Assembly: GCA_021555075.1 (NCBI GenBank)
Contig: JAKGBX010000002.1
Location: forward strand, 305,001-369,000
Source: Rhodobacteraceae bacterium LMO-JJ12
Lineage (GTDB): Bacteria; Pseudomonadota; Alphaproteobacteria; Rhodobacterales; Rhodobacteraceae
Direction of reading: 5' to 3'
DNA length: 64,000 nt
The position numbers and the translations under genes were made by a program. The notes beneath the pieces were generated by a model, which saw only the letters and a list, made by a program, of their open reading frames with translations, had not been told where the DNA came from and searched no databases. Numbering within the stretch: position 1 is the stretch's first letter; every line of letters starts with the position of its first letter. Of this stretch, positions 11,126 to 54,071 are shown piece by piece.

Positions 11126-13045
<1,920 letters not shown>

Positions 13046-21379: not shown

Positions 21380-21481
21380 CCTTCTCGCTCCTTCGTCTAC
21401 GATTTTTCATTGATTGGGCATCATCTTCATGGTCGTGCCCGGAGGGGGCGCTGACACGCATCGGCGCCCCCAAAAGGTTGT

Positions 21482-22207: not shown

Positions 22208-22257
22208 CAGTGTTTTTCCTGTGGTTTTCTGGTTGGTAAATTGGACCAAAGGGCCGG

Positions 22258-23616: not shown

Positions 23617-23627
23617 GTCCGTTCCTT

Positions 23628-35838: not shown

Positions 35839-36042
35839 ATGTCCGAAAAGCCCCCAGATCTACAGGCCGCACCCCCGGTTGTAGCCATTGCCGAAAACCG
35901 GGCGAGAGTAACCGCGCCGACCGGAAGCGGTCCGGCCGTCATCGCAAGCGTGATCGCACGCTGTACTGCAGCCATTGACCTTCCCATAACGGAGGGTGGC
36001 AATCACTTCGACAATAATCAATTCATTGGATTTGGCATATGA
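35839..36042 (+). CDS. Possible 67-aa ORF before ccmF
   Basis: ATG at 35839 gives a 67-aa product (MSEKPPDLQAAPPVVAIAEN...) whose stop overlaps the ccmF ATG as ATGA. The overlap and a modest AAGAG site favour translation. The sequence matches no family I know, and the opposite strand is also open here, so it may be chance or an old leader peptide. It is not CcmD or CcmE. Confidence 0.3.
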   Translation: MSEKPPDLQAAPPVVAIAENRARVTAPTGSGPAVIASVIARCTAAIDLPITEGGNHFDNNQFIGFGI

Positions 36043-38039
36043 TACCGGAAATAGGACAATTTGCACTCGCGCTCGCTCTGTCCATCGCTGTGGTTCAGGG
36101 TGTCGTGCCCATGTTGGGCGCTGCGCGTGGTAACATCCTGTGGATGCAGTCTGCGCGGACTTCCTCGGTCGCGCAGTTGATCTTCATCGGCATCGCATTC
36201 GCGGCCCTCATGCGGTCCTTTGTAGTCAGCGATTTCACCGTGGCCAACGTGGTCGAAAATTCGAATTCGCTGAAGCCGATGTTGTTCAAAATCGCAGGCA
36301 CCTGGGGCAGCCACGAAGGCTCCTTGCTGCTTTGGGTGCTGATCCTCGCGGCCTTTGGCGCAGCTGTGGCGCTTTTCGGATCGAACATTCCGGATGCGCT
36401 CAAGGCCCGAACACTGTCGGTTCAGGCATGGATCAGCACTGGGTTCCTGTCGTTCCTGTTGCTCACCTCCAACCCATTTGAGCGTGTCTTTCCGCCGCCC
36501 CTTGACGGTAACGACCTCAACCCGCTCTTGCAGGATGTCGGACTGGCATTGCATCCGCCGCTGCTCTATTTCGGCTATGTCGGTTTTTCTATCGTCTTTT
36601 CCTTCGCGGTTGCAGCGCTGATCGAAGGCCGCGTCGATGCCGCTTGGGCCCGCTGGGTCCGGCCCTGGACATTGGCCGCTTGGATGAGTCTGACAGCAGG
36701 GATCGTCCTTGGATCATGGTGGGCCTATTACGAACTCGGCTGGGGCGGCTGGTGGTTTTGGGATCCGGTCGAGAATGTGAGCTTCATGCCCTGGCTTTTG
36801 GGCACCGCGCTACTGCATTCAGCCATCGTTACGGAAAAGCGCGATGCGTTCAAAAGCTGGACGATTCTGCTGGCAATCCTGACTTTCTCTCTGTCTTTGC
36901 TGGGGACGTTCATTGTCCGGTCGGGACTTTTGACATCGGTCCACGCTTTTGCCGTCGATCCCGAACGGGGGCTCTACATTCTTGGTCTGCTAAGCCTCTC
37001 CATTGGAGGGTCACTGGGCCTTTTTGCCTGGCGGGCTCCGGTGATGGAGGGTGGTGGCCTTTTCAGCCCGATCAGCCGCGAGGCGGGGTTGCTCATCAAC
37101 AACTTGTTGCTGGCCACCGCTACGGGCACTGTCCTTTTCGGAACGCTTTATCCCCTATTCATGGAGGCTGTTGCCGATGAAAAGATCTCGGTCGGCCCGC
37201 CGTTTTTCAATGCGACATTCATCCCGATCATGTTGCCGCTTGTACTGCTTATGGCCATCGGTCCGTTCCTGTCATGGAAACGTGCCGATTTTAAGGGCGT
37301 TTTCCAGCGGCTGCGGTTTGTTGCGTTGCTGGCGGGGTTGGTCGGGCTGGCGGTCTGGTATCTGACCGAAGGAGGCCCGGTTCTCGCGTATCTCTCTATC
37401 GTTATTGCCGCATGGCTTTTGTTCGCAACACTTAGCGAATGGGCAGGCCGGATCAGACTTTTCGACATTCCCTTCCCGGATTCCATACGTCGGGCGCGCA
37501 ACCTACCGCGCGCGTCATACGGCATGACACTTGCGCATGCAGGTCTCGCTGTTGTGATGTTCGGATTTATTGGATCAAGTGCATGGAAATCCGAAGAAAT
37601 TGTTTTTGTGAAACCCGGAGACAAGATTATGATTGCCGGGTTCGATGTGCGATTTGACGGTGTCGAGCAGCTGCGCGGCCCTAACTATGTTGCAGATCGT
37701 GGAACGCTCGTTGTAAGCCGCAATGGCAACCCGGTCACCACATTGTATCCAGAGCGTAGGTCGTATCCGGTTGCACAGAGCAGCACGACGGAATCAGCTA
37801 TCCGTTCGACCCTCGCAGGCGATCTCTACGCATCCCTCGCCGAACCGGCGTCCGAGGAGGCCGCCGATCATGGGGCGTGGACATTGCGCATTCTATACGA
37901 GCCACTGGTTAACTTTATCTGGATCGGTTCGGCCTTACTGGTGCTGGGCGGCGGCCTGTCGCTTTCCGACCGCAGGCTGCGTGTCGGGGCGCCCCGTCGT
38001 GTCCCCCGCGCTGCGGTTCAAACGACACCAGCGGAGTAA
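36039..38039 (+). CDS. ccmF: Cytochrome c-type biogenesis protein CcmF
   Basis: The 666-aa membrane protein has about fifteen helices and the tryptophan-rich haem-handling motif WGGWWFWDPVENVSFMPW at ~225-242. Other conserved parts are GTWGSHEGSLLLWVL, LLYFGYVGFS and ATSTG-like LLATATGTVLFG. CcmF receives haem from CcmE and ligates it to the CxxCH of apocytochromes together with CcmH and CcmI at the periplasmic face. It begins a four-gene unit ccmF-G-H-I; ccmA-E are not in the window. This accessory set next to several small cytochromes c is discussed in the findings. Confidence 0.95.
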   Translation: MIPEIGQFALALALSIAVVQGVVPMLGAARGNILWMQSARTSSVAQLIFIGIAFAALMRSFVVSDFTVANVVENSNSLKPMLFKIAGTWGSHEGSLLLWVLILAAFGAAVALFGSNIPDALKARTLSVQAWISTGFLSFLLLTSNPFERVFPPPLDGNDLNPLLQDVGLALHPPLLYFGYVGFSIVFSFAVAALIEGRVDAAWARWVRPWTLAAWMSLTAGIVLGSWWAYYELGWGGWWFWDPVENVSFMPWLLGTALLHSAIVTEKRDAFKSWTILLAILTFSLSLLGTFIVRSGLLTSVHAFAVDPERGLYILGLLSLSIGGSLGLFAWRAPVMEGGGLFSPISREAGLLINNLLLATATGTVLFGTLYPLFMEAVADEKISVGPPFFNATFIPIMLPLVLLMAIGPFLSWKRADFKGVFQRLRFVALLAGLVGLAVWYLTEGGPVLAYLSIVIAAWLLFATLSEWAGRIRLFDIPFPDSIRRARNLPRASYGMTLAHAGLAVVMFGFIGSSAWKSEEIVFVKPGDKIMIAGFDVRFDGVEQLRGPNYVADRGTLVVSRNGNPVTTLYPERRSYPVAQSSTTESAIRSTLAGDLYASLAEPASEEAADHGAWTLRILYEPLVNFIWIGSALLVLGGGLSLSDRRLRVGAPRRVPRAAVQTTPAE

Positions 38040-38615
38040 ATGGACATGAAACGCGCCATAGCGGCCCTTCCCATTCTGATTGCGCTGATTCTCGGTGCGT
38101 TCTTTCTGTGGGGGTTGAACCCTGATCGCGATCCAAACGCCATTCCATCGGTGTTGATCGCACAACCCGCCCCCGATTTCGATCTTCCCACTGTAGACGG
38201 CGTGGACGTTCCGGGTCTTTCCCGTAGCAATCTAATAGGAAACCCTACGCCGGTTGTGGTCAATGTATTTGCATCCTGGTGTGTGCCATGTCGCGCTGAA
38301 CATGCGGTTCTGACCCGGATGGTGGAGCGCGATAGCGTTCGGCTTTTCGGCATCAATTACAAGGATAAGCCCGAGGCCGCACGAGGCTGGCTAGAGGATC
38401 TTGGCAACCCTTACGAGAGGATTGGCTCAGATCTGACTGGCCGCGCCGGCATCGAATGGGGAATATCGGGCGTACCTGAAACCTTCATTGTCGCCGGAGA
38501 CGGAACTGTCCTTTACCGTTATGTCGGCCCGATTGTCGGTTCCGAGGCGGAGGAAGAATTTGCGCTGGCGCTTGCCCAAGCCAGAGCAGCAAATGGAGCA
38601 GGAACAGGAATATGA
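38040..38615 (+). CDS. ccmG: Thiol:disulfide interchange protein CcmG (DsbE)
   Basis: An N-terminal membrane anchor (RAIAALPILIALILGAFFLW) precedes a thioredoxin fold with the active site ASWCVPCRAEH (~78-88) and the typical CcmG segments FGINYKDKPEAARGWL and GVPETFIVAGDG. It keeps apocytochrome and CcmH cysteines reduced for haem attachment in the periplasm. The ATG directly follows the ccmF stop (no gap), and its stop overlaps ccmH. In the family it takes electrons from CcdA or DsbD; here the ScsB-like protein at 40880 might serve. Confidence 0.94.
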   Translation: MDMKRAIAALPILIALILGAFFLWGLNPDRDPNAIPSVLIAQPAPDFDLPTVDGVDVPGLSRSNLIGNPTPVVVNVFASWCVPCRAEHAVLTRMVERDSVRLFGINYKDKPEAARGWLEDLGNPYERIGSDLTGRAGIEWGISGVPETFIVAGDGTVLYRYVGPIVGSEAEEEFALALAQARAANGAGTGI

Positions 38616-39088
38616 TACGTAAACTTCTTTTCATGACCTTGTTTTTGAGCGCGATGCCGTTTGCTGTCTACGCTGTCGAACCCGACGAGATGCTGGCTGA
38701 CTCGGTTCTGGAGGTGCGGGCGCGCGAGGTCTCCAAGAAATTGCGTTGCGTCGTCTGCCAGAACCAGGACATCGACAGCTCCAATTCGGGGGTGGCGCGG
38801 GATTTGCGCATTCTGGTTCGTGAACGATTGACCAAAGGCGACACGAACGCGGAGGTTTTGACATTTATCCATGCGCGCTACGGCGACTTCGTTTTGCTGA
38901 AACCGCCTTTCAAGCCGGAAACCTATGCCCTGTGGCTGGCTCCGATCATCCTGATCCTGATTGGCACCGGTGGCGTGATCGCGGTGCTGTCGAAAGCAAG
39001 TCGGCTCACGGCAATAACGGCGCTGAATACGGATGACGAACGCGCGGTTGCCGACATGCTGGCACAAGACAAGAAAGATAGGTCGTAA
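38612..39088 (+). CDS. ccmH: Cytochrome c maturation protein CcmH (CycL)
   Basis: A 158-aa protein with a signal sequence (LLFMTLFLSAMPFAVYA), the haem-lyase thiol motif LRCVVCQNQDIDSSNS (~45-60) and a C-terminal membrane helix (LWLAPIILILIGTGGVIAVL). It reduces or holds the apocytochrome CxxCH in the CcmFHI complex. Overlaps ccmG and ccmI by 4 and 1 bases. The three-helix N-terminal domain and length are normal. Confidence 0.94.
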   Translation: MIRKLLFMTLFLSAMPFAVYAVEPDEMLADSVLEVRAREVSKKLRCVVCQNQDIDSSNSGVARDLRILVRERLTKGDTNAEVLTFIHARYGDFVLLKPPFKPETYALWLAPIILILIGTGGVIAVLSKASRLTAITALNTDDERAVADMLAQDKKDRS

Positions 39089-40251
39089 TGCTCTGGATCA
39101 TATTTGCTACATTGGCGGTTCTGGCCGCTACTTTCATGGCTCTACCGCTGCGGTTTCGGGCGCAAACCGTATCCGACCGCAACGAGGGATCGGTTTCCAT
39201 TCTTGCGGATCAACTGCGCGAGGTCGAGACAGATGCCGAACGTGGCCTGATTTCGGAAGGGGATGCGCGGGCGGCACAGATCGAGATCAAACGCCGCCTT
39301 CTGGCACTCAGTCGAAGGGGTCCGCCCGCCATCCTGCGTCAATCCGTTCGCAAAGGGCACGGGGTATTATGGGCCGCGGCAATTGCCGTCCCCCTGGCGG
39401 CAGGGGCGCTCTACGCACAGCTCGGCTCCCCCGAGATCCCCGGCATCGCCTTTGCCGAGCGGCAGGACGAGCGCGATGAACAAGCTCAGATCACAGCACT
39501 GATCGGGCGGTTGGAGCAGCGTCTGCAAGACGACCCGGCTGGCGGCCCAACCGAAGGCTGGATGCTGCTGGGACAAACCTACATGCGCATGGGCTATTAT
39601 GGCGATGCGGCAGCGGCGATAGAGAATGTGATCGACCGCGCCGATGCAACCTCGCCGGTCCTGTCGCAATACGCCGAGGCTCTGGTCGCGTCTGAGGATG
39701 GCATCGTCACTCCCAACGCTCGCGCCGCCATCGCCCGCGCGCGAAAGATGGACTCGTCGAATCCTGCGGCCGCCTATTATGAGGCCATCGCGCTTGACCA
39801 GGCGGGTGATAGCACGGAAGCGCATAACTTGCTGCTTGCCCGGCTGGATGACGCAACAGGGTCGGAATCCTGGGTGGAGCTTTTCGTCGCACAGGCCAAT
39901 CGCATCGGCGAAACGCTTGGGCGCGAGCCTATCAGTCTTGCCTCCTTCGCTCCGATAGTTGACGAGCACATACCCGGTCCGACGGCGGTTGATATAGCTG
40001 CGGCTGGTGACATGAGTGAGGCGGATAGGAGCGCGTTCATCCAGACGATGGTTGATCGCCTTGCGAACCGCCTGACCGAGACACCCGAGGATCTGGACGG
40101 CTGGATGCGTCTTGCGAGTGCCTATAGCGTTCTTGGGGACGTTGGAAACGCACGGAACGCATACAGGACGGCCGAGCGACTTGCCGAGAGCTTGCCGACA
40201 GACGACCAGCGCAGGCAAACCATCCGGCAGGCACTGTCCGAACTTGATTGA
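39088..40251 (+). CDS. ccmI: Cytochrome c maturation protein CcmI (CycH)
   Basis: The 387-aa protein has two membrane helices (1-22 and ~93-113) with a cytoplasmic helical loop between (REVETDAERGLISEGDARAA). A periplasmic TPR region follows (GWMLLGQTYMRMGYYGDAAA and similar repeats). CcmI binds apocytochrome C-termini and presents them to CcmFH. The start overlaps the ccmH stop. It ends the ccm unit; the L,D-transpeptidase follows after 19 bases and may be co-transcribed. Confidence 0.92.
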   Translation: MLWIIFATLAVLAATFMALPLRFRAQTVSDRNEGSVSILADQLREVETDAERGLISEGDARAAQIEIKRRLLALSRRGPPAILRQSVRKGHGVLWAAAIAVPLAAGALYAQLGSPEIPGIAFAERQDERDEQAQITALIGRLEQRLQDDPAGGPTEGWMLLGQTYMRMGYYGDAAAAIENVIDRADATSPVLSQYAEALVASEDGIVTPNARAAIARARKMDSSNPAAAYYEAIALDQAGDSTEAHNLLLARLDDATGSESWVELFVAQANRIGETLGREPISLASFAPIVDEHIPGPTAVDIAAAGDMSEADRSAFIQTMVDRLANRLTETPEDLDGWMRLASAYSVLGDVGNARNAYRTAERLAESLPTDDQRRQTIRQALSELD

Positions 40252-40270: not shown

Positions 40271-40861
40271 ATGAGGCGGCGGGAATTTCTTACCGGAACA
40301 ACGGCAGCAGCAGGAATGACCATTGCCGCGGGCGCCGCCATTGCGCATCCGCCAAAACGGCTGCCGGACTACAATCTTCCGGAAGACATGCTTCCCCAGG
40401 TCGTGCCTATCGCCAAGGGGTTCCTGCCGTACGAAGTTCATGTCGACCCGGGTCAATTTGCCCTCTACTGGACGCTTCCTGAGGACATGGCCCTGCGCTA
40501 TGTCGTCGGCATCGGGCGACCGGGGCTTTACGAGGCAGGCGAATTCTACGTCGGTGCCAAGAAGGAATGGCCCAGTTGGAAGCCCACCCCGGGAATGTTG
40601 CGCCGCCAGCCGGAGCTATACGGCCAGTGGAAGGACGGGATGCCCGGCGGGCTGAATAACCCGCTTGGGTCTCGCGCGCTCTATCTGTTTACGCCCGAAC
40701 GCGGCGATACGTTTCTGCGGATCCATGGCACGAACGACCCCTCCACATTGGCGCGCCGTGTCTCTAATGGATGCGCGCGGCTGGTGAATGACCAGATGAT
40801 CGATCTCTATGATCGCGTGCCGACAGGCACACGAGTGGTGCTTTATGCGCCACAGGCATGA
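40271..40861 (+). CDS. L,D-transpeptidase (YkuD), Tat-type signal
   Basis: The start RRREFLTGTTAAAGMTIAAG resembles a Tat signal peptide. The YkuD catalytic region shows LRIHGTNDPSTLARRVSNGC followed by ARL, with the nucleophile Cys about residue 172 and the conserved His of HGTN. These enzymes make 3-3 peptidoglycan cross-links or attach proteins to peptidoglycan in the periplasm. AAGGAA precedes the ATG. It follows ccmI closely and converges with the ScsB-like gene. A second enzyme of the same kind is at 43939. Export of the folded protein might protect the thiol from copper; that is inference. Confidence 0.88.
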   Translation: MRRREFLTGTTAAAGMTIAAGAAIAHPPKRLPDYNLPEDMLPQVVPIAKGFLPYEVHVDPGQFALYWTLPEDMALRYVVGIGRPGLYEAGEFYVGAKKEWPSWKPTPGMLRRQPELYGQWKDGMPGGLNNPLGSRALYLFTPERGDTFLRIHGTNDPSTLARRVSNGCARLVNDQMIDLYDRVPTGTRVVLYAPQA

Positions 40862-40879
40862 TTGGCCAGTATTGGCCAA

Positions 40880-43027
40880 TCAGTTCCGGCTAGTGACGAG
40901 GTCCAGTCCCCGTGCGTCTTCAAGTGCCTGCACAACGGCGTCCGCCGTCAGAAGTTCAGGTAACACGATGCCGTCGGGCGCTGCCGGACCATAGACGGCA
41001 TTGAATGGTATGCCGTAACGTCCGAACCCTTCGAGATAGCGTGATATGGTCTCGTCAGGACGGGTCCAGTCCGCTTGCATCGAGATCGTTCCCGGTCGGC
41101 GCAATAAGGAGATGACGGGTTCACGGTCCAGAACGATTACCTTATTGGCTTTGCAAGTGAGGCACCAATCGGCGGTCACATCGACGAAAACCACGTTACC
41201 CTGCGAAATTTGGCGGGCGATTTCCGAGCGATCAAAGGCGGACCAGTTTGTCGCAAATTTCTTCGTTGGAAGGTCGGATTGGGACATGAGACCAGCGAGC
41301 ATGATTGCCACACCCGACAGCACGATCGCCCCCATAACACGAGCGAAACTCGGTAGTCGCCTGAGAGACAGGAAGACCACGACAGTCAAACTCATTCCAG
41401 CAATCCATAGCGCGGTTTGCTGGCCGGCAACACCGTTTAGAACCCACATAAGCCACCCTGCCGTTCCCGCCAGAGCCAGGCCCAGCAAGATTTTCAGCCA
41501 GATCATCCAGCGGCCCGGCTTTGGCAATCGCGTGACCATTTGGGGGAAGGCTGCGATGATCAGGTAGGGCAATGCCAGCCCCAACCCGAGCGCTGTGAAG
41601 ATGACGGCGATATCGACCGTCCGCCCAGCCAGTGCAAAGGCGACGGCAGTGCCGAGGAAAGGAGCTGAACAGGGGGTGGCGAGAATGGATGCAAAGGCGC
41701 CGGTTGCGAAGTCGCCACCATATCCCTTGCCGCCGCCAGCGCGAACAAGCTGGGTCTGAAGCGAGGATGGGAGGGTGAATTCAAACGCACCAAACAGATT
41801 GGCCGAAAAGATGACGAGGATGACAAACATCACTGTCAAAAACACCGGATTCTGAAATTGCAGGCCCCAACCGACGGTCATCCCAAAACTGCGCGCCACT
41901 AACGTTGCGGCCGCGAGTGCCCACATGAACGCCAGAACTCCGAGTGCGGAGACTGCAAAGCCCTTGCGGATACGTGCCGGAGATTGATCGGGCGACCTCA
42001 GGGCCGAAGAAAGTTTAATCGATAGCACGGGAAGAACACAAGGCATGACGTTCAGGATCAGCCCGCCGAGCAAGGCTATCACGGCGATCCAGGCCAATTC
42101 TGCAAACCCCGTCAGCGTCTGGTCTATCCTGAAAGGTGGCACCGCTGCACCTTCAGACAAGTCAGGTGTCAGCGTCGCAGCACGATTGCCATCGGTTACG
42201 GTGATCTGCAATGCAGTTGGTTCATTGGCCGATGTCAAGATTGGCAGCTCCACCCAAAGCAGACGATTATTATCACCCAACCGGATATCGGGTTTACCAA
42301 AGGCCGTGCCTTCGCCCAGCTCCGGAAAAACATCCGGATTAACGAAACGCTGATCGCTGCGGGCCGTCAGCGTCAAGGCCGTCATTTCGGGGTTGAGGTA
42401 GGCCGTTTCAATCGAGATGCCGCTGGAGACACCATCGTCGGGCACCTTGTCTGCGTAGGCCGAGATGAGCGCCGCCGCGGCATCGTCAATTCCACTTGCC
42501 CTAGGCAGTGTCAGCGAAAGGTTGAAATCCTGCGGCACACAGACCGTGGAGCAGATCAACAGATTTACCCGCGCAGACAATCGCGCAGGTGCGCCGGGCT
42601 CGGACAGCGTGACCCGGAGCGGAAACACGACCTCGTCATGGTAGCCGAAATTCTCGATACCGAAGGCGGTGAAACGTTCCGGCGCTGGCCAGAGAAAGCT
42701 GACATCTGCCACATTCTGTGAACCGGCCCAATCGATCGAAGGCGGAAAGCCGACTTCTCCCGGCGAGCGCCAGTAGGTTTTCCAGTTTTCTCCCAGTTGC
42801 AGATGCAGGCCGGCCGACAGGGTCGTCGCACCGGGCGTGACACCGTTCTCAGCGGTTATCAAATGGGCTTCGACCGCCGAATCGGCGAAGCTTTCCGATG
42901 TGGCTGCATTCAGCGAACCCGTGAGCGCGACAAAGACCGCCACTAAGAGGGCGAGGGATACAATCAACCGACGAACCGCGTTCGGCGTTTTAGTGATCAT
43001 GTGACAACGTATGTCGATGCCCATCAT
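40880..43027 (-). CDS. ScsB/DsbD-like membrane thiol-disulfide reductase
   Basis: The 715-aa protein has a signal peptide and an N-terminal periplasmic domain (~45-290) with a Cys pair in LLICSTVCVPQDF. A membrane domain of about eight helices holds Cys in NVMPCVLPVLSIKL and ATPCSAPFLG, and a C-terminal thioredoxin domain has VTADWCLTCKANK. This is the DsbD-type electron relay (cytoplasm to periplasm), and the long N-terminal domain is typical of ScsB, known for copper tolerance. Its likely periplasmic partner is the ScsC-like protein at 47050. GGAG lies 10 bases before ATG 43027. Convergent with the transpeptidase at 40271. Confidence 0.88.
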   Translation of the reverse strand: MMGIDIRCHMITKTPNAVRRLIVSLALLVAVFVALTGSLNAATSESFADSAVEAHLITAENGVTPGATTLSAGLHLQLGENWKTYWRSPGEVGFPPSIDWAGSQNVADVSFLWPAPERFTAFGIENFGYHDEVVFPLRVTLSEPGAPARLSARVNLLICSTVCVPQDFNLSLTLPRASGIDDAAAALISAYADKVPDDGVSSGISIETAYLNPEMTALTLTARSDQRFVNPDVFPELGEGTAFGKPDIRLGDNNRLLWVELPILTSANEPTALQITVTDGNRAATLTPDLSEGAAVPPFRIDQTLTGFAELAWIAVIALLGGLILNVMPCVLPVLSIKLSSALRSPDQSPARIRKGFAVSALGVLAFMWALAAATLVARSFGMTVGWGLQFQNPVFLTVMFVILVIFSANLFGAFEFTLPSSLQTQLVRAGGGKGYGGDFATGAFASILATPCSAPFLGTAVAFALAGRTVDIAVIFTALGLGLALPYLIIAAFPQMVTRLPKPGRWMIWLKILLGLALAGTAGWLMWVLNGVAGQQTALWIAGMSLTVVVFLSLRRLPSFARVMGAIVLSGVAIMLAGLMSQSDLPTKKFATNWSAFDRSEIARQISQGNVVFVDVTADWCLTCKANKVIVLDREPVISLLRRPGTISMQADWTRPDETISRYLEGFGRYGIPFNAVYGPAAPDGIVLPELLTADAVVQALEDARGLDLVTSRN

Positions 43028-43208
43028 TCTTCTTTCTCCATGGCGGCAACCAGCAGCAGTGTATTGTGGTTAGCATCACCTTGAATGACTGCACAACCGA
43101 TCAGCGTATTGCGCAAGATCATCGTCACGTCGGGGAGCCCATTCACTCACTTCCCATTGAGCATTTGAAGTTTCCAGTGTCGATTGGGAGAGACACATAC
43201 CGAAACTC

Positions 43209-43469
43209 TTATGTGGGCGGTGTCGTTTCGAACGAGAAGCCCTCGCGACCGTCCTGGCACTCAAGAACCTTCAGTCCATTCGCCCCCAAATCCTTCGCAG
43301 TACAGCCCTCCGGCACCAGGGCAGATCTGGCACTTGTCGACACTCTCGTGACATCGCGTTGAAGACATTGCTGGGGAGATTGGGAACACGCGCCAAGAAT
43401 AAGAACGAGCGAAAGTGCGAGGAGCCGCCGGAATGCTGTGCAGCTCCGGCAGAAGCTACTCAGCTGCAA
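43209..43469 (-). CDS. Small lipoprotein, unknown, 86 aa
   Basis: The start (basic, then LLALSLVLILGACSQ) has a good lipobox LGAC with Cys at ~28. The mature part has three further Cys (QQCLQRD, PEGCTAKD, VLECQDG) in a compact 58 residues, enough for a disulfide-linked fold or a metal site. The gene overlaps the end of the DUF2933-like gene by 14 bases. I do not recognise the family. The 180 bases between this gene and the ScsB-like gene show nothing else. Confidence 0.65.
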   Translation of the reverse strand: MQLSSFCRSCTAFRRLLALSLVLILGACSQSPQQCLQRDVTRVSTSARSALVPEGCTAKDLGANGLKVLECQDGREGFSFETTPPT

Positions 43470-43752
43470 TCTCTCGGTCTACCGGAATCGGCGCTTTTTC
43501 GGCAGCGATATCGGTATCCTTCGAGGTATTATGGCACGATTTTCCCATGAAACGATGCATCACAAAATGAGCACCTACGCAAAGGAGCAATGGCGCAAAA
43601 ACGAAGATGTTGCTGGTTACTCCAGCCGACAAACCGCCCGCAGCAAAATAGATAGCGATTGGTACGAACATCACGGCGCAGCAGGCCCACATGCCGTATT
43701 TCATCAGATTGGCTGGGGTACCGCTTTGTGACCTCACTACGACTTCTTTCAT
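43456..43752 (-). CDS. DUF2933-like small membrane protein, 98 aa
   Basis: Two membrane helices (LMKYGMWACCAVMFVPIAIYF and IFVFAPLLLCVGAHFVMHRFM) with Cys, Met and His in and near them (ACCAVM, CVGAHFVMH, GKSCH). This follows the DUF2933 pattern, small proteins often found in copper and silver clusters. The paired Cys in the first helix might bind Cu(I). Divergent from the L,D-transpeptidase at 43939, with a CueR-type operator in the gap that could serve both sides. Confidence 0.7.
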   Translation of the reverse strand: MKEVVVRSQSGTPANLMKYGMWACCAVMFVPIAIYFAAGGLSAGVTSNIFVFAPLLLCVGAHFVMHRFMGKSCHNTSKDTDIAAEKAPIPVDREIAAE

Positions 43753-43872
43753 TCGAATTACATCTCCAATAGTTCAACCTTGTTCCTAGCGGCGTTCCTA
43801 GCGGCTTCCCGAACGGGAAAGTCAACGATACAAACCGTTACAAAAATCACTGTTTTGTCAGGCTGCCGTTGC

Positions 43873-43903
43873 TTGACCCTCCCGTGCGGGAAGGTGATTA
43901 AAA
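43873..43903 (+). promoter_or_regulatory. CueR-type promoter-operator of the second copper operon
   Basis: TTGACC (43873-43878) overlaps a 20-bp dyad at 43876-43895, halves ACCCTCCCGT and GCGGGAAGGT (8 of 10 positions pair). It resembles known CueR operators (ACCTTCC...GGAAGGT) more than any other site in the window. TTAAAA at 43898 gives a 19-bp spacer. It lies 36 bases before the ATG of the L,D-transpeptidase and should control the rightward operon 43939-47778. Confidence 0.75.
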
Positions 43904-43938
43904 CTCCGACAACAGATAAACAAATCAGGACGCAGGCT

Positions 43939-44514
43939 ATGGCAAAGCAAACTCTCAAGCCGATCGATCGGCGCGGGTTCCTTGTTGCATCGGCAGGCAG
44001 CATGATCGCGCTGGCGAGCCCGTCGGTGCTTCGCGCGCAGGAGGAAGCGCCAGTGCGCAGAAATGTATCGTCTTTCCGGTTACATGAATGGCAGGACCAT
44101 TTTGATGCCTTGGGAAAGGGTATTCTGTTGTCAGACACCACGACCATGGTGTTGCAACACTGGACAGCGGATGGCGAGATGAATGTTTATCCAACATCAG
44201 TGCCGCTGACCGATGAATTGACCCGCCGCGGTTATACCGAGGTGATCAGAAAGGTCGATGGGCCAAGCTGGGCGCCGACGCCGTCAATGAAAAAGCGCAA
44301 TCCCGAATGGCCGGATTTCGTAGGCCCAGGCCCCGACAACCCGCTGGGAACGCATGCGCTATATCTTTCATGGCAGTACTACCGAATCCATGGCACCAAC
44401 GACACGCGCAAGATTGGCCGTAAATCCTCGAACGGCTGCATCGGACTCTACAACGAACAGATTGAAGAGGTTTTCGACCGCACGCCTGTCGGAACGCAGG
44501 TTAAACTAATCTGA
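43939..44514 (+). CDS. L,D-transpeptidase (YkuD), second copy
   Basis: ATG at 43939 gives MAKQTLKPIDRRGFLVASAG, a Tat-like signal. The catalytic region reads YRIHGTNDTRKIGRKSSNGC followed by IGL, with Cys about residue 172 and the HGTN His. The enzyme cross-links or modifies peptidoglycan in the periplasm. It is the first gene after a CueR-type operator, which makes copper induction likely. It shares the LGT/LGS-HALYL and HGTND features with the copy at 40271, but the two differ over much of their length, so they are not recent duplicates. The upstream in-frame ATG at 43780 overlaps the operator and is not used. Confidence 0.88.
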   Translation: MAKQTLKPIDRRGFLVASAGSMIALASPSVLRAQEEAPVRRNVSSFRLHEWQDHFDALGKGILLSDTTTMVLQHWTADGEMNVYPTSVPLTDELTRRGYTEVIRKVDGPSWAPTPSMKKRNPEWPDFVGPGPDNPLGTHALYLSWQYYRIHGTNDTRKIGRKSSNGCIGLYNEQIEEVFDRTPVGTQVKLI

Positions 44515-44548
44515 ATTGTTTGTGAGACACAAGAGGACAAATGAAAAC

Positions 44549-45007
44549 ATGAACAAAATGCTTTTGGCGATCATCGCATTTTTCGTGCTGGGTGGCGTCG
44601 CTTTCTTTTGGAATGCATCGCAACCCTCCGCGCAGGGTGCTGGCCACTCTATGGTACCCCCCGATACGAGTGCGTTGGCAGAAGGCGCACCTATCGCGCA
44701 GGTGACGCTTCCGGCCGAGCTGTCGGCCAACGCCGAGATGGGAAAGCGCGCATTTGAGGCGAAATGCGCGCAGTGCCATGGCGAGGACGCAGCTGGCCAG
44801 AACGGTGTCGCCCCTCCACTGGTTCACATATTATATGAGCCGAACCACCATTCGGATATGGCTTTTGTTATGGCGGCGAAAAACGGAGTTCAGTCCCATC
44901 ACTGGCGCTTTGGCAATATGCCTCCCGTCGAGGGCTTAACCGATGCCGATGTGAAAATGATCGCGCGCTATGTGCGCGAGCTTCAGAAAGAAAACGGCAT
45001 CTTTTGA
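44549..45007 (+). CDS. Membrane-anchored cytochrome c, paralogue of 20939
   Basis: The N-terminal helix (LLAIIAFFVLGGVAFFW) anchors a class I cytochrome c with CAQCH (~79-83). The segment YEPNHHSDMAFVMAAKNGVQ and then FGNMPPV supplies the axial Met. It aligns along nearly its whole length with the cytochrome at 20939. ATG 44549 follows GAGG by 12 bases. It lies between the transpeptidase and a multicopper oxidase in the CueR-type operon and may carry electrons from or to that oxidase. Confidence 0.85.
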   Translation: MNKMLLAIIAFFVLGGVAFFWNASQPSAQGAGHSMVPPDTSALAEGAPIAQVTLPAELSANAEMGKRAFEAKCAQCHGEDAAGQNGVAPPLVHILYEPNHHSDMAFVMAAKNGVQSHHWRFGNMPPVEGLTDADVKMIARYVRELQKENGIF

Positions 45008-45179: not shown

Positions 45180-46571
45180 ATGACGACACGGCGACACTTC
45201 CTTATGCAGGGCGCGGCAACCGCCGCAGCCTTGGCATTGCCCAGATTGGCTGGCGCCGCAACGCCCGGATTTGTTGAGATCAAGGCTCAGACGGCGGCTG
45301 TCCAATTGGCACCGACGTCCTACCCAAGGACGGAAATTTGGGGCTATGGCGGCGTGATGCCCGGCCCCGAAGTGCGGTTGGCGCAAGGGTCGCGCGTGCA
45401 ACGCTCGTTCCGCAACGAAGTGCCGCAGGCAAGTTCCATCCATTGGCACGGGATTCGCACCGACAACTCGATGGACGGGGTTGCTGGCTTGACTCAACTG
45501 GCCGTCGAACCCGGCGAGAGCTTCAACTATGATTTCCTGGTACCCGATGCTGGAACCTATTGGTATCACGCTCATAACCGATCGGCCGAGCAGGTGGCAC
45601 GTGGCCTCTACGGCGCGCTGATCGTGGAGGAGGCCGATGCACCTGACGTGGATAGCGAAGAGGTATTAATCTTAGATGATTGGCTGCTTGATCCGGAAAC
45701 GGCACAGATCGACACGGATTTCTCTTCGCGCCACGATCGCAGCCATGCAGGTCGCCGCGGCAATTTTATCGCCACAAACGGGCGCTTTGACCATTCGCGG
45801 GGGGTGCAACAGAACGAGCGATTGCGCCTCCGGCTCATCAATGCGGCGAATGCGAGGATTTTCGTGCTGACGTTTTCGGGGATGGAAGGCTGGACCGTCG
45901 CGCTCGACGGGATGCCATTGAGCCAACCGGAACCGGTGACCGAGACATTGATCCTGGGCCCGGGCCAACGCGCTGATCTGATCGTGGATATCACCGCAGA
46001 GCCGGGCGAAGCGGCACATCTTGTTCGCATCGAGGACCAGGAAGGCGTGTCGCAAGTGGCCTTCCCCGTCAAAGGTCGGGCTTCAACTGCCCGCCGTGCC
46101 GAGCCTTTGGCCTTGCCGCCCAATCCCAGGATGGTGGTGACGGGCCTCGATACCGCCACACATGCGCGTCTTAACATGCAGGGCGGTGCAATGGGAACGC
46201 TGGATTCTGCCATCCTGAATAGTGAACGCAAGAGCTTTCGCGAACTGGTCGAGGCGAACGAGTTCTGGGCCTTCAACGGAACAATCGGCATGACCGATAC
46301 ACCGCTCTTGAGTGTCTCTAAAGGCGAGACTGTCGCGCTTGAGATATATAATGACACGTCCTTCCCCCATGCGATGCATCTTCATGGCATGCACTTTCGC
46401 GAGATCGGTAAAGACGGTGGTCTTGGCCCGTTTCGCGATACACTTTTGATGTTCGGAGGCGAGACCCGGACCATCGGGTTTGTCGCTGACAATCCGGGGG
46501 ACTGGCTGTTTCATTGTCACATGCTCAGTCATGCGGCGTCGGGTATGATAACTTGGATGAAGGTAACGTGA
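45180..46571 (+). CDS. Multicopper oxidase (CueO-like), second copy
   Basis: ATG 45180 gives a Tat signal (TTRRHFLMQGAATAAALALP). The 463-aa enzyme has the four ligand motifs SIHWHGI, WYHAHN, HAMHLHGMHF and HCHMLSHAASGM in order. It should oxidise Cu(I) in the periplasm. It lacks the long Met-rich insert of the enzyme at 22258. The longer frame from 45096 adds 28 residues without signal features. The next gene starts at a GTG overlapping its stop. The 172 bases before the start hold no feature I can support. Confidence 0.9.
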   Translation: MTTRRHFLMQGAATAAALALPRLAGAATPGFVEIKAQTAAVQLAPTSYPRTEIWGYGGVMPGPEVRLAQGSRVQRSFRNEVPQASSIHWHGIRTDNSMDGVAGLTQLAVEPGESFNYDFLVPDAGTYWYHAHNRSAEQVARGLYGALIVEEADAPDVDSEEVLILDDWLLDPETAQIDTDFSSRHDRSHAGRRGNFIATNGRFDHSRGVQQNERLRLRLINAANARIFVLTFSGMEGWTVALDGMPLSQPEPVTETLILGPGQRADLIVDITAEPGEAAHLVRIEDQEGVSQVAFPVKGRASTARRAEPLALPPNPRMVVTGLDTATHARLNMQGGAMGTLDSAILNSERKSFRELVEANEFWAFNGTIGMTDTPLLSVSKGETVALEIYNDTSFPHAMHLHGMHFREIGKDGGLGPFRDTLLMFGGETRTIGFVADNPGDWLFHCHMLSHAASGMITWMKVT

Positions 46572-47047
46572 AGCGAGGATACCTGATCCTAACCGTTATT
46601 CTGATTTCAACTGCCAGCCTTGGCGGCTGGCTGATAACGCACGGGAGCACCCAGATCCACGACGCACCGCAGTCGTTTGATCTGGCAGAAGGCGAACGGC
46701 TTTACCAGAGCAGCTGCGCTTCCTGCCACGGCGCCAGTCTTGAAGGGCAGCCCGACTGGCGCTCACCCGACCCAAATGGCGTTCTTCCTGCCCCACCCCA
46801 TGATGAAACCGGCCACACATGGCACCACGCCGATAGCATTTTGTTCGACTACACCAAATTGGGGGGCAAAGCGGCCCTCGCACGTCAGGGTGTCGATTTT
46901 GAAAGTGGCATGCCGGGCTTTGGTGATCAACTGAGCGATACGCAAATCTGGAACATCCTCGCCTATATCAAATCCACTTGGCCGAACCGACAGCGCGAAG
47001 TGCAGGCTGAACGCAGCGCCGCTGAGACCCAGAGAGAAGGAAATTGA
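46568..47047 (+). CDS. Membrane-anchored cytochrome c, 159 aa
   Basis: GTG at 46568 overlaps the oxidase stop (GTGA), with GAAGGT just before. The protein has an N-terminal helix (GYLILTVILISTASLGGWLI), CASCH (~53-57) and the segments ETGHTWHHADSILFDYTKLG and ESGMPGF typical of a class I cytochrome with His/Met ligation. It is a different branch from the cytochromes at 20939 and 44549. It is probably an electron partner of the oxidase or a terminal oxidase. AAGGAA at its 3' end serves the next gene. Confidence 0.85.
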   Translation: MKRGYLILTVILISTASLGGWLITHGSTQIHDAPQSFDLAEGERLYQSSCASCHGASLEGQPDWRSPDPNGVLPAPPHDETGHTWHHADSILFDYTKLGGKAALARQGVDFESGMPGFGDQLSDTQIWNILAYIKSTWPNRQREVQAERSAAETQREGN

Positions 47048-47049
47048 CA

Positions 47050-47778
47050 ATGCGCCCTATACAAACCACCGCCCTAGCGCTTGGCCTGGCAATCACCCCG
47101 ATCGCAAGCTTCGCCCAGAATCTGAGCGATGCACGTATCAAAGAACTCACGCTGGAAGCCATCCGAGAAAACCCGCAGATCGTTATGGAAGCGGTGCAAC
47201 TGCTTGAAATGCAGCAAGCGGTGGATCAGGCCACAGCGCAAGCGGATGTTCTGGAAAACCAGCGCCAGATGCTGGAACATGACCCAAACGCGCCCGTTCT
47301 GGGGAACCCAGAGGGTGATGTGACCGTCGTGGAGTTCTTTGACTACAACTGTCCATATTGCAAACGGGCCATGCCCGAGGTTCAGGGGTTGTTGGACGCT
47401 GATCGGAATATCCGGCTCGTCTATCGCGAATGGCCCATCCTTGGGGACGGTTCGGTATTTGCGGCCAAAGCTGCCCTTGCCGCGCGGCAACAAGGCAAAT
47501 ACGAGGAATTTCACTTGGCACTAATGGGTTTGAAAGGACGCGCAGAGGAAACGTCGGTTATGCGCGTGGCCGAGGAAGTCGGGCTCGACATTAAACAACT
47601 GCGCGCCGATATGGAAGCGCCCGAGGTGCAGCAACATATTGACGTTTCAATGCGCCTGACACAGGCACTAGGATTCAACGGAACACCGTCTTTCGTGATC
47701 GGTGACAATCTGGTTCCGGGCTTTGTCGAACAGGAACAGCTAGAGTCACTTGTCGAAAAGGTTCGGGACAAAGATTGA
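47050..47778 (+). CDS. DsbA-family thiol oxidoreductase, ScsC-like
   Basis: A signal peptide (RPIQTTALALGLAITPIASF) is followed by a helical N-terminal extension (RIKELTLEAIRENPQIVMEA, LEMQQAVDQATAQADVLENQ) like the oligomerisation stalk of ScsC proteins. A DsbA fold follows with FFDYNCPYCKRAMPE and the cis-Pro in NGTPSFVIG. It shuffles disulfides in periplasmic proteins and is known in this family to help copper tolerance; the ScsB-like protein at 40880 would keep it reduced. ATG 47050 follows AAGGAA. It ends the CueR-type operon. Confidence 0.88.
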   Translation: MRPIQTTALALGLAITPIASFAQNLSDARIKELTLEAIRENPQIVMEAVQLLEMQQAVDQATAQADVLENQRQMLEHDPNAPVLGNPEGDVTVVEFFDYNCPYCKRAMPEVQGLLDADRNIRLVYREWPILGDGSVFAAKAALAARQQGKYEEFHLALMGLKGRAEETSVMRVAEEVGLDIKQLRADMEAPEVQQHIDVSMRLTQALGFNGTPSFVIGDNLVPGFVEQEQLESLVEKVRDKD

Positions 47779-47838: not shown

Positions 47839-48045
47839 TCAGGTCGCCGCCGGCGTTCTTACGTCATAACCGGCATCGCGGATTGCTTCGGATATGGCTC
47901 GCTCGCTCAGAAAGCTTTCTACGTCGACAGTGTGCGCGCCGAGATCACAGGAAATCTTGGCGGTTGGATCGATCGCCATGATCGCCTTCTCGATTACAGC
48001 GGTGCAGTGCCCGCAGCTCATGTCCGGAACGTTCAATCTGGTCAT
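47839..48045 (-). CDS. copZ: CopZ-like copper chaperone (HMA), 68 aa
   Basis: One HMA domain with MSCGHC (~9-14) and the end DAGYDVRTPAAT. It should bind and deliver cytoplasmic Cu(I). It is divergent from the disrupted copA at 48190, with a MerR-type site in the gap. GGAG lies before the ATG. Paralogue of the gene at 19743, with moderate similarity. Confidence 0.85.
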   Translation of the reverse strand: MTRLNVPDMSCGHCTAVIEKAIMAIDPTAKISCDLGAHTVDVESFLSERAISEAIRDAGYDVRTPAAT

Positions 48046-48127
48046 GTCTATCTCCTTCGAACTTGCATTCAGGTGAGGCGTTCCACCGTGAGAAGGTCAA
48101 GAGTCGACGGAAAATATTGTGACCTTA

Positions 48128-48159
48128 TTGACCTTCCATTGGGTGGAACCTCTATCTAA
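48128..48159 (+). promoter_or_regulatory. MerR/CueR-type promoter-operator of the second copA
   Basis: TTGACC (48128-48133), dyad TTCCA-N5-TGGAA (48134-48138 and 48144-48148, centre 48141) and TATCTA at 48154 as -10 with a 20-bp spacer. It lies 31 bases before the copA-2 ATG and downstream of the divergent copZ promoter region, so it could affect both. Confidence 0.7.
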
Positions 48160-48189: not shown

Positions 48190-50696
48190 ATGCCAACCCC
48201 ACTAACCCTTCGAATTTCGGTGCAGAACATGTCCTGCGCGTCTTGTGTCGGGCGGGTCGAGCGGGCTCTGTCTGTGCTGCCGGGGGTCAGTAACGTCAGT
48301 GTCAATCTTGCCAGTGAAACAGCGCAGGCATAGATTGATGCGCCCGGTCGCATCTCCGAAGCCATAAAGGCGCTTGACGAGGCGGGCTATCCTGCCCGGA
48401 CTCAAAGCGTCCGGCTGAACGTGGCGTCGATGACCTGCGCCTCTTGCGTGGGGCGCGTTGACAAGGCCCTGGGGGCTGTGCCGGGTGTACTGGATGTGAA
48501 CGTGAATCTCGCCTCCGAGACTGCGACGGTCACCTATGTTGAAGGTGCGGTGGATCTGGCAGACTTGCTTAAGGCGGCGAAGGATGCCGGCTATCCGGCA
48601 GAGTCCGCGCAGGACACTGCGCCCGAAGACCACAGCGCCCGCAAAGAGGGCGAGGCGCGTAAGCTGGCCCGAAGACAGCGTTGGTTGCGGCGCTTGCCTT
48701 GCCGGTGTTCCTGTTGGAAATGGGCGCGCATATTATCCCAGGCATGCATGATCTGATCGGTCGCACGATCGGCCATCAGACCAGTTGGATGATCCAGTTC
48801 GTGCTGACCACAGCTATCTTAGTCTGGCCCGGTCGTGCCTTCTATACGAAGGGCTTTCCGGCGCTCTTCAAGGGCGCGCCGGACATGAACAGCCTTGTCG
48901 CGGTCGGCACCTCGGCTGCCTATCTTTATTCGCTTGTGGCGCTGTTTGCCCCCGCACTTTTGCCCGAAGCCTCGCGTGCTGTCTATTTTGAAGCGGCGGC
49001 GGTGATCGTGGGTCTGATCCTTCTGGGCCGCTGGATGGAGGCGCGTGCCAAGGGGCGCACCGGGGCCGCGATCCAGAAACTGCTTGGCCTGCAGGCGCGT
49101 ACCGCGCGGGTCTTGGTGGGCGGCGACACACAAGACGTGGCAATCGAACAGATTCGCACGGGCGATATCCTTGTCGTGCGCCCGGGCGAGCGGATCGCCG
49201 TGGACGGTGAGGTGACCGATGGTAGCGCACGGGTTGATGAAAGCATGATTACCGGCGAACCGGTGCCCGTGGCCAAGACGACTGGCGATCCTGTTACCGG
49301 CGGCACGGTCAACGGCACAGGGGCCTTCCAGTTTCGGGCAACCCGCGTCGGGGCCGATACGACCCTGGCGCAAATTATTCGGATGGTCGAAGAGGCGCAG
49401 GGGGCCAAGCTGCCAATTCAGGGCATGGTGGACCGGATCACTCTCTGGTTCGTGCCCGCTGTCATGATGCTGGCCGTTTTGACGGTGATCGTCTGGTTGC
49501 TGGCCGGACCATCACCCGCTCTCTCCTACGCATTGGTGGCGGGCGTGTCTGTGCTGATCATTGCCTGCCCCTGCGCGATGGGACTGGCCTCGCCGACCTC
49601 GATCATGGTCGGTACCGGCCGGGCTGCCGAGATGGGCGTGCTGTTTCGCAAGGGCGACGCGCTACAACAGCTGACGAGCGTCGATGTCGTGGCGCTAGAC
49701 AAAACCGGCACGGTAACTGAAGGCCGCCCCGAACTGACCGATCTGGTTTTGACCGACGGGTTCGACAGGGCGGACGTCTTGGCGCTTATCGCAGCGGTGG
49801 AAGCGCAGTCGGAACATTCCGTCGCCGACGCAATCGTTCGGGCAGCGCGTGCAGAGAACGTCGCGCGGCATAACATCGAAAACTTTGAGTCCATCACCGG
49901 ACACGGTGTCCGCGCAGAGGTGGCTGGACGCGATGTCCTAGTCGGGGCCGACCGCCTGATGATACGCGAAGGGCTGGAAATCGGCGTGCTGGCCGATGAA
50001 GAACGGCGTCTCGCGGAACAGGGCCGCACCGCGCTGTTCGCGGCCATCGAAGGGCGTGTGGCCGCAGTGATCGCCGTGGCCAACCCGGTGAAACCCGCCA
50101 GCGCAGCGGCGATCAGCGCGCTGCATGATCTGGGGCTGAAGGTCGCCATGATAACGGGCGACAAACGTGAGACCGCAGAGGCCATTGCGCGAGAAACGGG
50201 CATCGACCACGTGATCGCTGGCGTCTTGCCGGACGGTAAAGTCGCGGCGCTGGACGAATTGCGCGGGAACGGACGGCGCATCGCTTTTGTCGGTGACGGG
50301 ATCAACGATGCTCCTGCGCTCGCTCATGCGGATGTGGGGATCGCCATCGGCACCGGGACCGACGTGGCCATCGAATCCGCCGATGTGGTCTTGATGTCCG
50401 GCGATTTGCGTGGCGTCGTGAACGCGTTCGAGGTTTCGACCCGCACCATGCGCAACATTCGTCAGAACCTGTTCTGGGCCTTTGGCTACAACGTCGCCCT
50501 GATCCCCGTGGCGGCAGGCGTGCTTTACCCGGTATTTGGCCTTCTGCTCTCACCGGTGCTGGCCGCGGGAGCCATGGCGCTCAGTTCCGTTTTCGTCCTG
50601 ACGAACGCATTGCGCCTGCGCCGGGTTCGTCCGGCGATGGATGAGGCGAAATTGGCCCAGCCTTCCGCGTCCCTGTCACCTGAACCAGCCGAATGA
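48190..50696 (+). CDS. copA: Cu(I)-exporting P-type ATPase, second copy, disrupted
   Basis: Two N-terminal HMA domains are encoded (NMSCASC at 48226-48246 and SMTCASC at 48430-48450). A TAG at 48331-48333 interrupts the first. A second break follows near 48681, where one missing T shifts the frame; from there to 50696 the core is intact, with TGEPV, the copper-type [18 protein letters not shown] and [10 protein letters not shown]. Unbroken it would be a normal ~835-aa CopA pumping Cu(I). As written it could only be made as fragments. Both lesions are single-base events and may be errors. It sits under a MerR-type operator and upstream of cueR. Confidence 0.85.
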
Positions 50697-50709: not shown

Positions 50710-51105
50710 ATGAACATCGGAGAAGTGGCCAACTTTTCGGGCGTACCCGCCAAAACGATCCGCTACTATGAAGATATCGGGCTTGTGCAGCCCTTGCGCA
50801 GTGCCAACGGCTACCGCAGTTTCCGGCAAAGCGACGTGCACAAGCTGGCATTTCTGAGCAGAGCCCGTGCCTTGGGCTTTACCATCGAGGACTGTCGAAA
50901 CCTTTTGAAGCTTTACGCTGACACTGACCGTGCCAGCGCCGAGGTGAAACAGATCGCAGAAGAGCATCTTGAGAGGATCGACCATAAGATAGTGGAGCTT
51001 AACCAGATGCGCGCGACGCTCGCACATCTGGTTAACGCTTGCGCGGGCGACCACCGTCCCGACTGTCCAATCCTGGCCGATCTGGCGAGGGAGCAAAAAA
51101 AATAA
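50710..51105 (+). CDS. cueR: CueR/HmrR-family copper-responsive regulator
   Basis: The 131-aa MerR-type protein has the N-terminal helix-turn-helix (MNIGEVANFSGVPAKTIRYY) and a dimerisation helix. The metal loop is near the C-terminus (NACAGDHRPDCPIL), with the Cys-x7-Cys spacing of Cu(I)/Ag/Au sensors. AAAGGA precedes the ATG. It follows copA-2 by 13 bases in the same direction. It is the only MerR-family gene in the window and the natural candidate to act at the five MerR-type sites. Confidence 0.93.
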   Translation: MNIGEVANFSGVPAKTIRYYEDIGLVQPLRSANGYRSFRQSDVHKLAFLSRARALGFTIEDCRNLLKLYADTDRASAEVKQIAEEHLERIDHKIVELNQMRATLAHLVNACAGDHRPDCPILADLAREQKK

Positions 51106-53642: not shown

Positions 53643-54071
53643 TTATGCGGTGCGTTGCCTGTGATGCAAGCGTCGCGCTTCGAGTGTCTTTCGTTTGATC
53701 CTTTCCCTTTGCTGCAGAATGGCTTTGTCACGACCGAAGTAGACGTCGGCAGGCGTGACGTTGTTCAGGCTCTCGTGATATCGCTGATGGTTGTAGTGAT
53801 CGACGAAGGCTTCGATCTGAGCGTCGAGGTCTCCGGGCAGGAAGTAGTTTTCCAGCAAGATGCGGTTCTTCAATGTCTGGTGCCAACGCTCGATCTTGCC
53901 TTGGCTTTGCGGGTGATACGGTGCGCCGCGTGAGTGCTTCATCCCCTTGTCTTTCAACCAATCGGCAAGGTCGCCTGAGACGTAACTGGAGCCGTTGTCG
54001 CTGAGCAGCCGTGGCGGCCCGAAAACACGCAGGTCTCGATAGTCCGCATGAGCTTCTGTCGCATATTTCAC
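53643..54071 (-). mobile_element. IS3-family transposase, C-terminal remnant
   Basis: The frame encodes the second half of a DDE integrase core. Asp is in RLLSDNGSSYVSGDLADWL and Glu in QGKIERWHQTLKNRILLENY; then come FVDHYNHQRYHESLNNVTPA and a basic tail. This matches orfB of IS3-type elements. The first Asp of the triad and the whole orfA are missing: upstream of 54071 the frame reaches a stop within nine codons. So this is a truncated copy that cannot move by itself. It marks the right edge of the metal island. Confidence 0.85.

Follow-up and report, generated by a model that had tools for sequence, protein, structure and literature searches.

Two L,D-Transpeptidase Genes in a Copper Island

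Analysis of a 64,000-nucleotide stretch of the Rhodobacteraceae bacterium LMO-JJ12 genome (assembly GCA_021555075.1, contig JAKGBX010000002.1, forward strand, positions 305,001 to 369,000; hereafter the window) showed a copper island with two intact genes for L,D-transpeptidases (LDTs) of the YkuD family, LDT1 and LDT2. LDT2 lies behind a dyad of MerR/CueR type that recurs in related loci. A preliminary description of this DNA had reported two diverged YkuD enzymes at 40271 and 43939, one directly behind a CueR-type operator, and had interpreted them as copper-inducible; the observation itself is confirmed here, and the interpretation is partly supported. The principal features of the locus are as follows:

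40271..40861, + strand: LDT1, YkuD L,D-transpeptidase, 196 amino acids, intact (YkuD 67.9 bits, cut-off 23.4)
43939..44514, + strand: LDT2, YkuD L,D-transpeptidase, 191 amino acids, intact (YkuD 71.4 bits, cut-off 23.4)
43876..43895, + strand: LDT2 dyad ACCCTCCCGTGCGGGAAGGT, 20 bp, MerR/CueR-type, TTGAC flush (pattern scans)
35978..35997, + strand: dyad before ccmF, 20 bp, MerR/CueR-type, TTGAC flush (pattern scans)
43803..43822, − strand: 20-bp dyad facing the DUF2933 gene, TTGACTTTCCCGTTCGGGAAG (pattern scans)
43827..43842, + strand: direct repeat GATACA-N4-GTTACA, candidate response-regulator box (pattern scans)
32159..32881, + strand: OmpR-type response regulator (Response_reg and Trans_reg_C over the cut-off; ATG placed by eye, longest frame from 32069)
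32848..34296, + strand: sensor histidine kinase (HAMP, HisKA, HATPase_c) with a Met/His-rich stretch HEVEHGIMPMPHLTPEMAEMHLAMMRG ahead of HAMP

LDT1 is the last gene of a ccmF-ccmG-ccmH-ccmI run, starting 19 bases past ccmI, and is convergent with a DsbD gene. The start of this run behind a dyad of the same type, the divergent dyad at 43803-43822, the direct repeat at 43827-43842, the two-component system at 32159-34296 and the six-base spacing of the dyad were additional to the preliminary description.

The LDT2 Dyad in the Window and in the Genome

The LDT2 dyad ends 43 bases before the LDT2 ATG, a distance that had earlier been given as 36 bases. It scores 13/14, the top score in the window, as had been claimed, and shares that score with the ccmF dyad at 35978-35997. 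MerR-type promoters have a TTGAC flush with the left end of the dyad, and the CueR dyad consensus is of the GGAAGGT type; at LDT2, the −35 TTGAC is likewise flush with a GGAAGGT-type dyad (TTGACCCTCCCGTGCGGGAAGGT). A weak candidate −10 element, TTAAAA, was noted by eye 19 bp downstream of this TTGAC, and a sigma-70 scan with a spacing of 16-18 found none. The window contained two matches to the dyad with a six-base spacer (N6) at no more than one mismatch, compared to 0.01 expected from shuffles.

Pattern scans were extended to the whole genome (4.35 Mb, 10 contigs), with the reversed pattern as the control. ACCYTCC-N6-GGAAGGT was present only before LDT2 and ccmF, and the exact pattern TTGACYYTCC-N6-GGARG was present at four sites, with no site for either reversed pattern. 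The four sites lie before ccmF, before the DUF2933 gene, before LDT2 and at C1:882920, where the dyad precedes a paralogue of the cytochrome c gene next downstream of LDT2 (L148:1501-2049); this last site hints at a wider N6 regulon. The exact pattern with a seven-base spacer (N7) was found at five sites (reversed control 0), namely before the window copA, at window position 30795 (−), at C4:250034, which is 2.5 kb from a cueR, at C5:12405, and at C5:114439, immediately before copZ.

Conservation of the Upstream Elements in Related Loci

The set of relatives comprised the best 80 of 585 confirmed named LDT2 loci, the closest being retained; as these include 66 distinct upstream regions, the counts below are not independent events. 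The locus stretches end at 10 kb, and 1917 random stretches from the same loci served as the background. A facing dyad was scored at a minimum of 11/14 dyad positions plus TTGAC at a minimum of 4/5, and a direct repeat as GWTACA-N4-GWTACA with no more than one mismatch. The facing dyad was present in 37 of the 80 loci, in all 37 with the N6 spacing, and in 27/1917 background stretches; the direct repeat was present in 55/80 loci and 8/1917 background stretches. Both elements were present in 12 loci, and no locus had neither. In one group of relatives (L107-L125), 15 of the 19 loci carried the dyad without the repeat.

Neither element was found upstream of the 22 control paralogues (L024-L045), none of which has an island neighbour within 1.5 kb, whereas one or both are present upstream of six homologues in islands of other genomes (L017-L022). 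The labels "island" and "other" were set by identity after the upstream regions had first been viewed, when the dyads of L022 and L023 were already apparent. They were rechecked independently through island neighbours within 1.5 kb, which L017, L018, L019 and L022 have; L020 and L021 are homologues in CopA-bearing regions (L161 and L159, respectively). L023, which lacks an island neighbour within 1.5 kb, was left unlabelled, yet is among the 90 island-type rows of the residue comparison below.

The spacing of the dyad varied. Across the loci, N6 accounted for 40/41 dyad matches at LDT2 and 38/40 at the DUF2933 gene, and N7 for 74/74 at copper ATPase genes; a further 79 dyad matches, including the window's ten, had no assigned target. 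The dyads of copZ were divided between N6 (17) and N7 (29). As copZ is a known CueR target with both forms, CueR may accept both spacings. CueR control of LDT2 is likely.

The neighbourhood of LDT2 is also shared. Among the 80 loci, copA and/or cueR were found in 68, a cytcB-type cytochrome c in 75, a DsbA in 71, a multicopper oxidase in 66, and DsbD and DUF2933 in 52 each; 35 loci had at least two LDTs. The annotated gene order on Dinoroseobacter shibae pDSHI01 is very similar to that of the island. The closest relatives of LDT2 are, among the matches listed, nearly all from Rhodobacterales.

The Direct Repeat and the Two-Component System

Fifty loci have the exact direct repeat upstream of LDT2, and a single exact copy lies elsewhere in the loci. 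Its three exact copies in the genome lie before LDT2, before the homologue on contig C5, and, also on C5, immediately ahead of a DsbB-like gene (assigned by eye) and an LDT; as the reversed control gave two genomic sites, the positions of the repeats, not their number, are informative. The repeat has the form of an OmpR-type box, with a period of 10 bp, approximately one helical turn. The nearest NCBIfam models were OmpR, VirG and CreB for the response regulator and EnvZ and CpxA for the kinase, all below the cut-off. Within the 10-kb stretches, the repeat accompanied the regulator (at least 200 bits) in 32 of 37 loci and was also present in 23 of the 43 loci without the regulator there. Counterparts of the two-component system lie upstream of ccm, or closer to LDT2, in many loci. 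The direct repeat is a plausible candidate box for the island's OmpR-type response regulator.

Features of the Two Enzymes

LDT1 and LDT2 both contain the HGTN and SNGC motifs and share 44% local identity over 106 columns, in agreement with the earlier account of motifs and divergence. Their N-termini carry RR-type signals (RREFL in LDT1, RRGFL in LDT2) of the twin-arginine form, and twin-arginine translocation (Tat) export is predicted from sequence. His151 and Cys167 of LDT2, which we take to be the catalytic pair, were invariant in all 117 rows of the residue comparison (90 island-type and 27 other rows, including repeats of the same gene and identical proteins), and likewise across 54 aligned proteins. 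An AlphaFold model of LDT2 (pLDDT 78) gave 4lzh as its best Foldseek match (E 5.5e-12, TM(query) 0.61), and the modelled fold is that of YkuD L,D-transpeptidases, matching solved LDTs. The best NCBIfam matches were LdtE, PRK10190 and PRK10260, at 83.2 bits compared to the 517 set for membership of these equivalogs.

The island-type proteins have a residue signature of their own. His49 was present in 87/90 island-type rows, His54 in 89/90, His74 in 86/90 and Met81 in 85/90; among the 27 other rows, His54 occurred in five and the remaining three residues in none. Gln replaces the other group's His73 in 90/90 island-type rows, Arg replaces His139 in 82/90, with His retained in the window LDT2, and position 154 is Gln or Asn in 68/90, with Asn in the window LDT2. 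A copper site at His49, His54, His74 and Met81 is a suggestion from this pattern. Spatial clustering of the four residues in the model was discarded as a criterion, with residues 47-49 at a pLDDT below 50. In a tree of 71 island-type and 24 other distinct proteins, one change suffices for the island label, with weak support (56/85).

The short, single-domain island LDTs resemble the YkuD/ErfK enzymes of Klebsiella (4lzh) and Bacillus (YkuD) in the Pfam YkuD domain, the HGT and S-x-G-C motifs and the Foldseek fold. They differ in their length and domain content, in their RR signals and His49, His54 and His74, and in their copper-island location and operators. Where 4lzh has SHGC, the island LDTs have SNGC.

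Gene Content of the Island

The other features of the island are listed below:

36039..40251, + strand: ccmF, ccmG/dsbE, ccmH and ccmI run, cytochrome c maturation (Dinoroseobacter pDSHI01 counterparts, tblastn)
40880..43027, − strand: DsbD-type thiol-disulfide reductase (DsbD_N, DsbD_TM, Thioredoxin_7)
43456..43752, − strand: DUF2933 small protein, divergent from LDT2 (PF11666)
44516..45007, + strand: cytochrome c directly behind LDT2 (PF00034; possible ATG at 44549)
45180..46571, + strand: multicopper oxidase with an RR-type signal (Cu-oxidase domains; start by eye, longest frame from 45096)
46514..47047, + strand: second cytochrome c (PF00034)
47044..47778, + strand: DsbA-like periplasmic thiol protein (PF01323 over the cut-off; ScsC_N and DsbG models below the cut-off)
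47839..48045, − strand: CopZ-like copper chaperone (HMA domain)
48078-48097: copZ N6 dyad, 11/14 (pattern scan)
48131..48151, + strand: 21-bp (N7) CueR-type dyad before copA (pattern scans)
48190..50696, + strand: copA copper ATPase, interrupted (in-frame stop, frame change)
50710..51105, + strand: CueR, Cu(I)-responsive MerR regulator (TIGR02044 160.4 bits, cut-off 147.4)

From LDT2, the genes follow in the order cytochrome c, multicopper oxidase, cytochrome c and DsbA-like protein, and then copZ, copA and cueR. Contig C5 (118.9 kb) carries four YkuD genes, and its two ends taken together form a second copper island resembling this one in composition; the genome has 13 YkuD genes, six of which are in the window island or on C5. 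One of the C5 YkuD genes adjoins the DsbB-like gene and lies behind a direct repeat.

Interpretation of the Island LDTs

Bacterial copper resistance is usually framed as efflux, oxidation and sequestration. Copper is said to inhibit L,D-transpeptidases (work attributed to Peters, 2018), and DsbG and DsbD reportedly protect transpeptidases with a single cysteine (attributed to Depuydt, 2009). A purified Vibrio cholerae LDT, and LD-crosslinking in several species, were inhibited by copper (PMC11390936). Single-cysteine transpeptidases were the preferred contacts of DsbG (PMC3526765), and, in vitro, Helicobacter pylori HP0231 is capable of reducing a putative LDT (PMC3463561). The CueR regulon was given as copA, copZ and cueO (PMC8456105), and Brucella ErfK, an alphaproteobacterial LDT, was termed a Tat substrate (PMC11836645). 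In the text seen, a study of the copper-stressed biofilm methylome referred to LDTs in general terms only (PMC12579266), and an Erwinia copper transcriptome mentioned mrcB only (PMC12542790). In the literature searched, which largely lacks subscription journals and was viewed mainly as titles and abstract openings, no paper was recognised as placing LDTs on a copper island or under the control of CueR.

The reading that we favour, with modest confidence and from sequence data, is that LDT1 and LDT2 are copper-regulated, island-borne enzymes that supply LDT function under copper. The genes, the operators, their conservation and the contrast with the paralogues can be read from the DNA, and copper-type regulation of the island LDTs is well supported at that level. 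We infer the function under copper, including induction, the identity of the binding regulator, activity in the presence of the metal and protection by the thiol proteins. Under rising copper, LDT2 and the cytochrome c and oxidase genes behind it would be turned on by a CueR-type activator at the N6 dyad and, among many of the relatives, by a two-component regulator acting through the direct repeat; the same type of dyad before ccmF would turn on ccmFGHI and LDT1. Since copper inhibits ordinary LDTs, the cell would supply extra or less copper-sensitive LDTs in their place; it is because the LDTs are coupled to thiol-redox proteins and to operators of copper type that we read them as such a supply. 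The island DsbD and DsbA-like proteins would hold the catalytic cysteines reduced, and the links that LDTs make, whether within peptidoglycan or to the outer membrane, may thereby outlast copper stress. A more specific proposal, which we advance tentatively and regard as somewhat less probable than not, is that of a copper-target bypass, in which a mobile island with its own histidine-altered LDT group, copper induction through two converging regulators and dedicated thiol proteins would allow LD cross-linking to persist while copper poisons the housekeeping LDTs.

The proposed arrangement overlaps with known systems and departs from each. The CueR regulon is matched by a CueR over the cut-off, by ACC(T/C)TCC..GGAAGGT dyads flush with TTGAC and by copA and copZ in the island; here, LDTs, ccm genes, a cytochrome c and DUF2933 are added as candidate targets, with N6 instead of N7 at these genes. 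The work on copper inhibition concerns the same enzyme family and the same metal (PMC11390936); there, housekeeping LDTs were inhibited, whereas here LDT genes are seemingly switched on with copper defence. As in the DsbG/DsbD system, an LDT occurs together with DsbD and a DsbA-like protein, but the neighbours here are those of a copper island and the DsbG model matched weakly. Brucella ErfK is similarly an alphaproteobacterial LDT with Tat-type export, and differs in that the portion of PMC11836645 seen held no copper link.

Several results weigh against the supply of LDT function under copper. The facing dyad is missing from 43/80 loci, which have the repeat instead, with its regulator and signal putative, and the ccmF dyad recurs in just 4/32 loci. 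At LDT2, the dyad is 20 bp long (N6), one base shorter than the 21-bp (N7) dyads of the copper ATPase genes; its earlier designation as a CueR-type operator is supported by its conservation in relatives, its absence from the 22 paralogues and the presence of a CueR over the cut-off and other copper genes in the island, and is weakened by this spacing. The four-site genomic count refers to one exact pattern only, which the weaker N6 dyad of copZ escapes, and another N6 dyad in the window (12/14, at 9511-9530 on the − strand), for which no target gene is recognised, is probably due to chance. At the set thresholds, 12/80 loci had neither copA nor cueR within the stretch. The window copA is itself broken at two points, an in-frame stop beyond the first HMA domain and a frame change beyond the second, which reflect either decay or an assembly error; an intact copy is on contig C5. 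The window LDT2 matches the non-island group at positions 104, 106, 108 and His139, and branches near that group in the tree. The RR-type signals, also reported earlier, are present, but were rejected as evidence, as they are common to the non-island homologues (22/22 N-termini, with starts chosen to precede the RR); further counts of 89/89 island-type and 26/27 other rows are biased by rows cut just before the motif.

In 51 family genomes, excluding the window's own locus, LDTs occurred within ~10 kb at 6/42 CueR loci over the cut-off (10 LDTs in total), compared to 1/38 controls, which were other MerR-type loci hand-picked down the list of sub-cut-off matches; several of these stretches were shorter, at contig ends. 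The statement that LDTs are generally in the CueR regulon was rejected on these figures as too strong, and the LDTs are thus a feature of one island type and not of CueR loci in general. According to PMC9426580, a 102-kb plasmid of Dinoroseobacter, on which copper and cobalt genes are annotated, left copper, cobalt and zinc resistance unchanged, with silver resistance slightly higher. An LDT2 homologue is present on two 102-kb Dinoroseobacter plasmid records (H56 and H57), and the DFL 12 records have LDT2 homologues on two plasmids other than the phenotyped one. On Ochrobactrum pLM19O1, from a copper mine, the neighbours of the LDT are autotransporters, and the stretch has no annotated copper genes.

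Other explanations were considered against these data. The island LDTs may be copper-regulated and yet tie outer-membrane or periplasmic proteins to peptidoglycan against copper entry, instead of forming 3-3 cross-links. Alphaproteobacterial LDTs attach outer-membrane proteins. The best NCBIfam matches (PRK10190, PRK10260 and LdtE, all far below the cut-off) fit such tethering, as does the finding that the E. coli transpeptidases contacted by DsbG join the major lipoprotein to peptidoglycan (PMC3526765); the two activities are indistinguishable from sequence alone, and we regard tethering as unlikely. Slightly less probable is control mainly by envelope stress or redox state through the OmpR-type two-component system, with the MerR-type dyad secondary or confined to a subgroup and copper one of several signals. 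The repeat is indeed commoner than the facing dyad (55 and 37 of 80 loci), and the regulator and kinase are nearest to OmpR and to EnvZ/CpxA, respectively, below the cut-off in each case. However, the window has both elements, a Met/His-rich stretch is present in the kinase, all genomic sites of the exact N6 pattern lie before genes of the module, and the dyad stands without the repeat in the L107-L125 group (15/19).

We consider it very improbable that the island LDTs are sacrificial sinks for copper or oxidation, whose Cys, His and Met residues bind copper and spare the housekeeping enzymes. His49, His54, His74 and Met81 are common to the island-type rows and rare or absent in the others, as a sink would have it; against this, the catalytic His and Cys never vary, a constraint unnecessary for a pure sink, the total His content is no greater in the island type (4.8 compared to 5.3 per protein), and clustering cannot be judged from a model in which residues 47-49 fall below a pLDDT of 50. 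The least probable account, to which we give hardly any weight, is that the LDT genes simply travel with metal-resistance plasmids and play no part in copper defence. LDT2 homologues are common on plasmids (959/72,556 plasmid records), and at least one, that of Ochrobactrum pLM19O1, has no copper context, but the same cytochrome c neighbour recurs across genera, the operators are conserved, and the 22 paralogues provide a contrast.

If the island does supply a copper-induced LDT, the cell wall would be a target of copper that has a resistance gene to itself, as drug targets do, and a widespread plasmid gene annotated merely as "L,D-transpeptidase" would gain a role. The idea is testable in cultured Dinoroseobacter shibae (DSHI_RS19085).

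Additional Observations

In Roseibium aggregatum p2_LZB033 (L147), a stretch without copA carries two LDTs together with DUF2933, CcdA, DsbA, an oxidase and cytochromes c; the module may occur independently of the copper pump. On a Klebsiella pneumoniae conjugative plasmid (L146), dsbB adjoins ldtB in a stretch free of annotated copper genes, and the pair is a further case of a thiol-redox gene beside an LDT. Elsewhere in the window, more metal-looking genes were noted by eye or similarity at 11126-25088, namely P-type ATPases (11126 and 17387), a multicopper oxidase (22258) and an outer-membrane-factor-like protein (23628). A second two-component system is present at 14453-16494, and a transposase-like fragment (by eye) lies downstream of the island at 53643-54071 (−).

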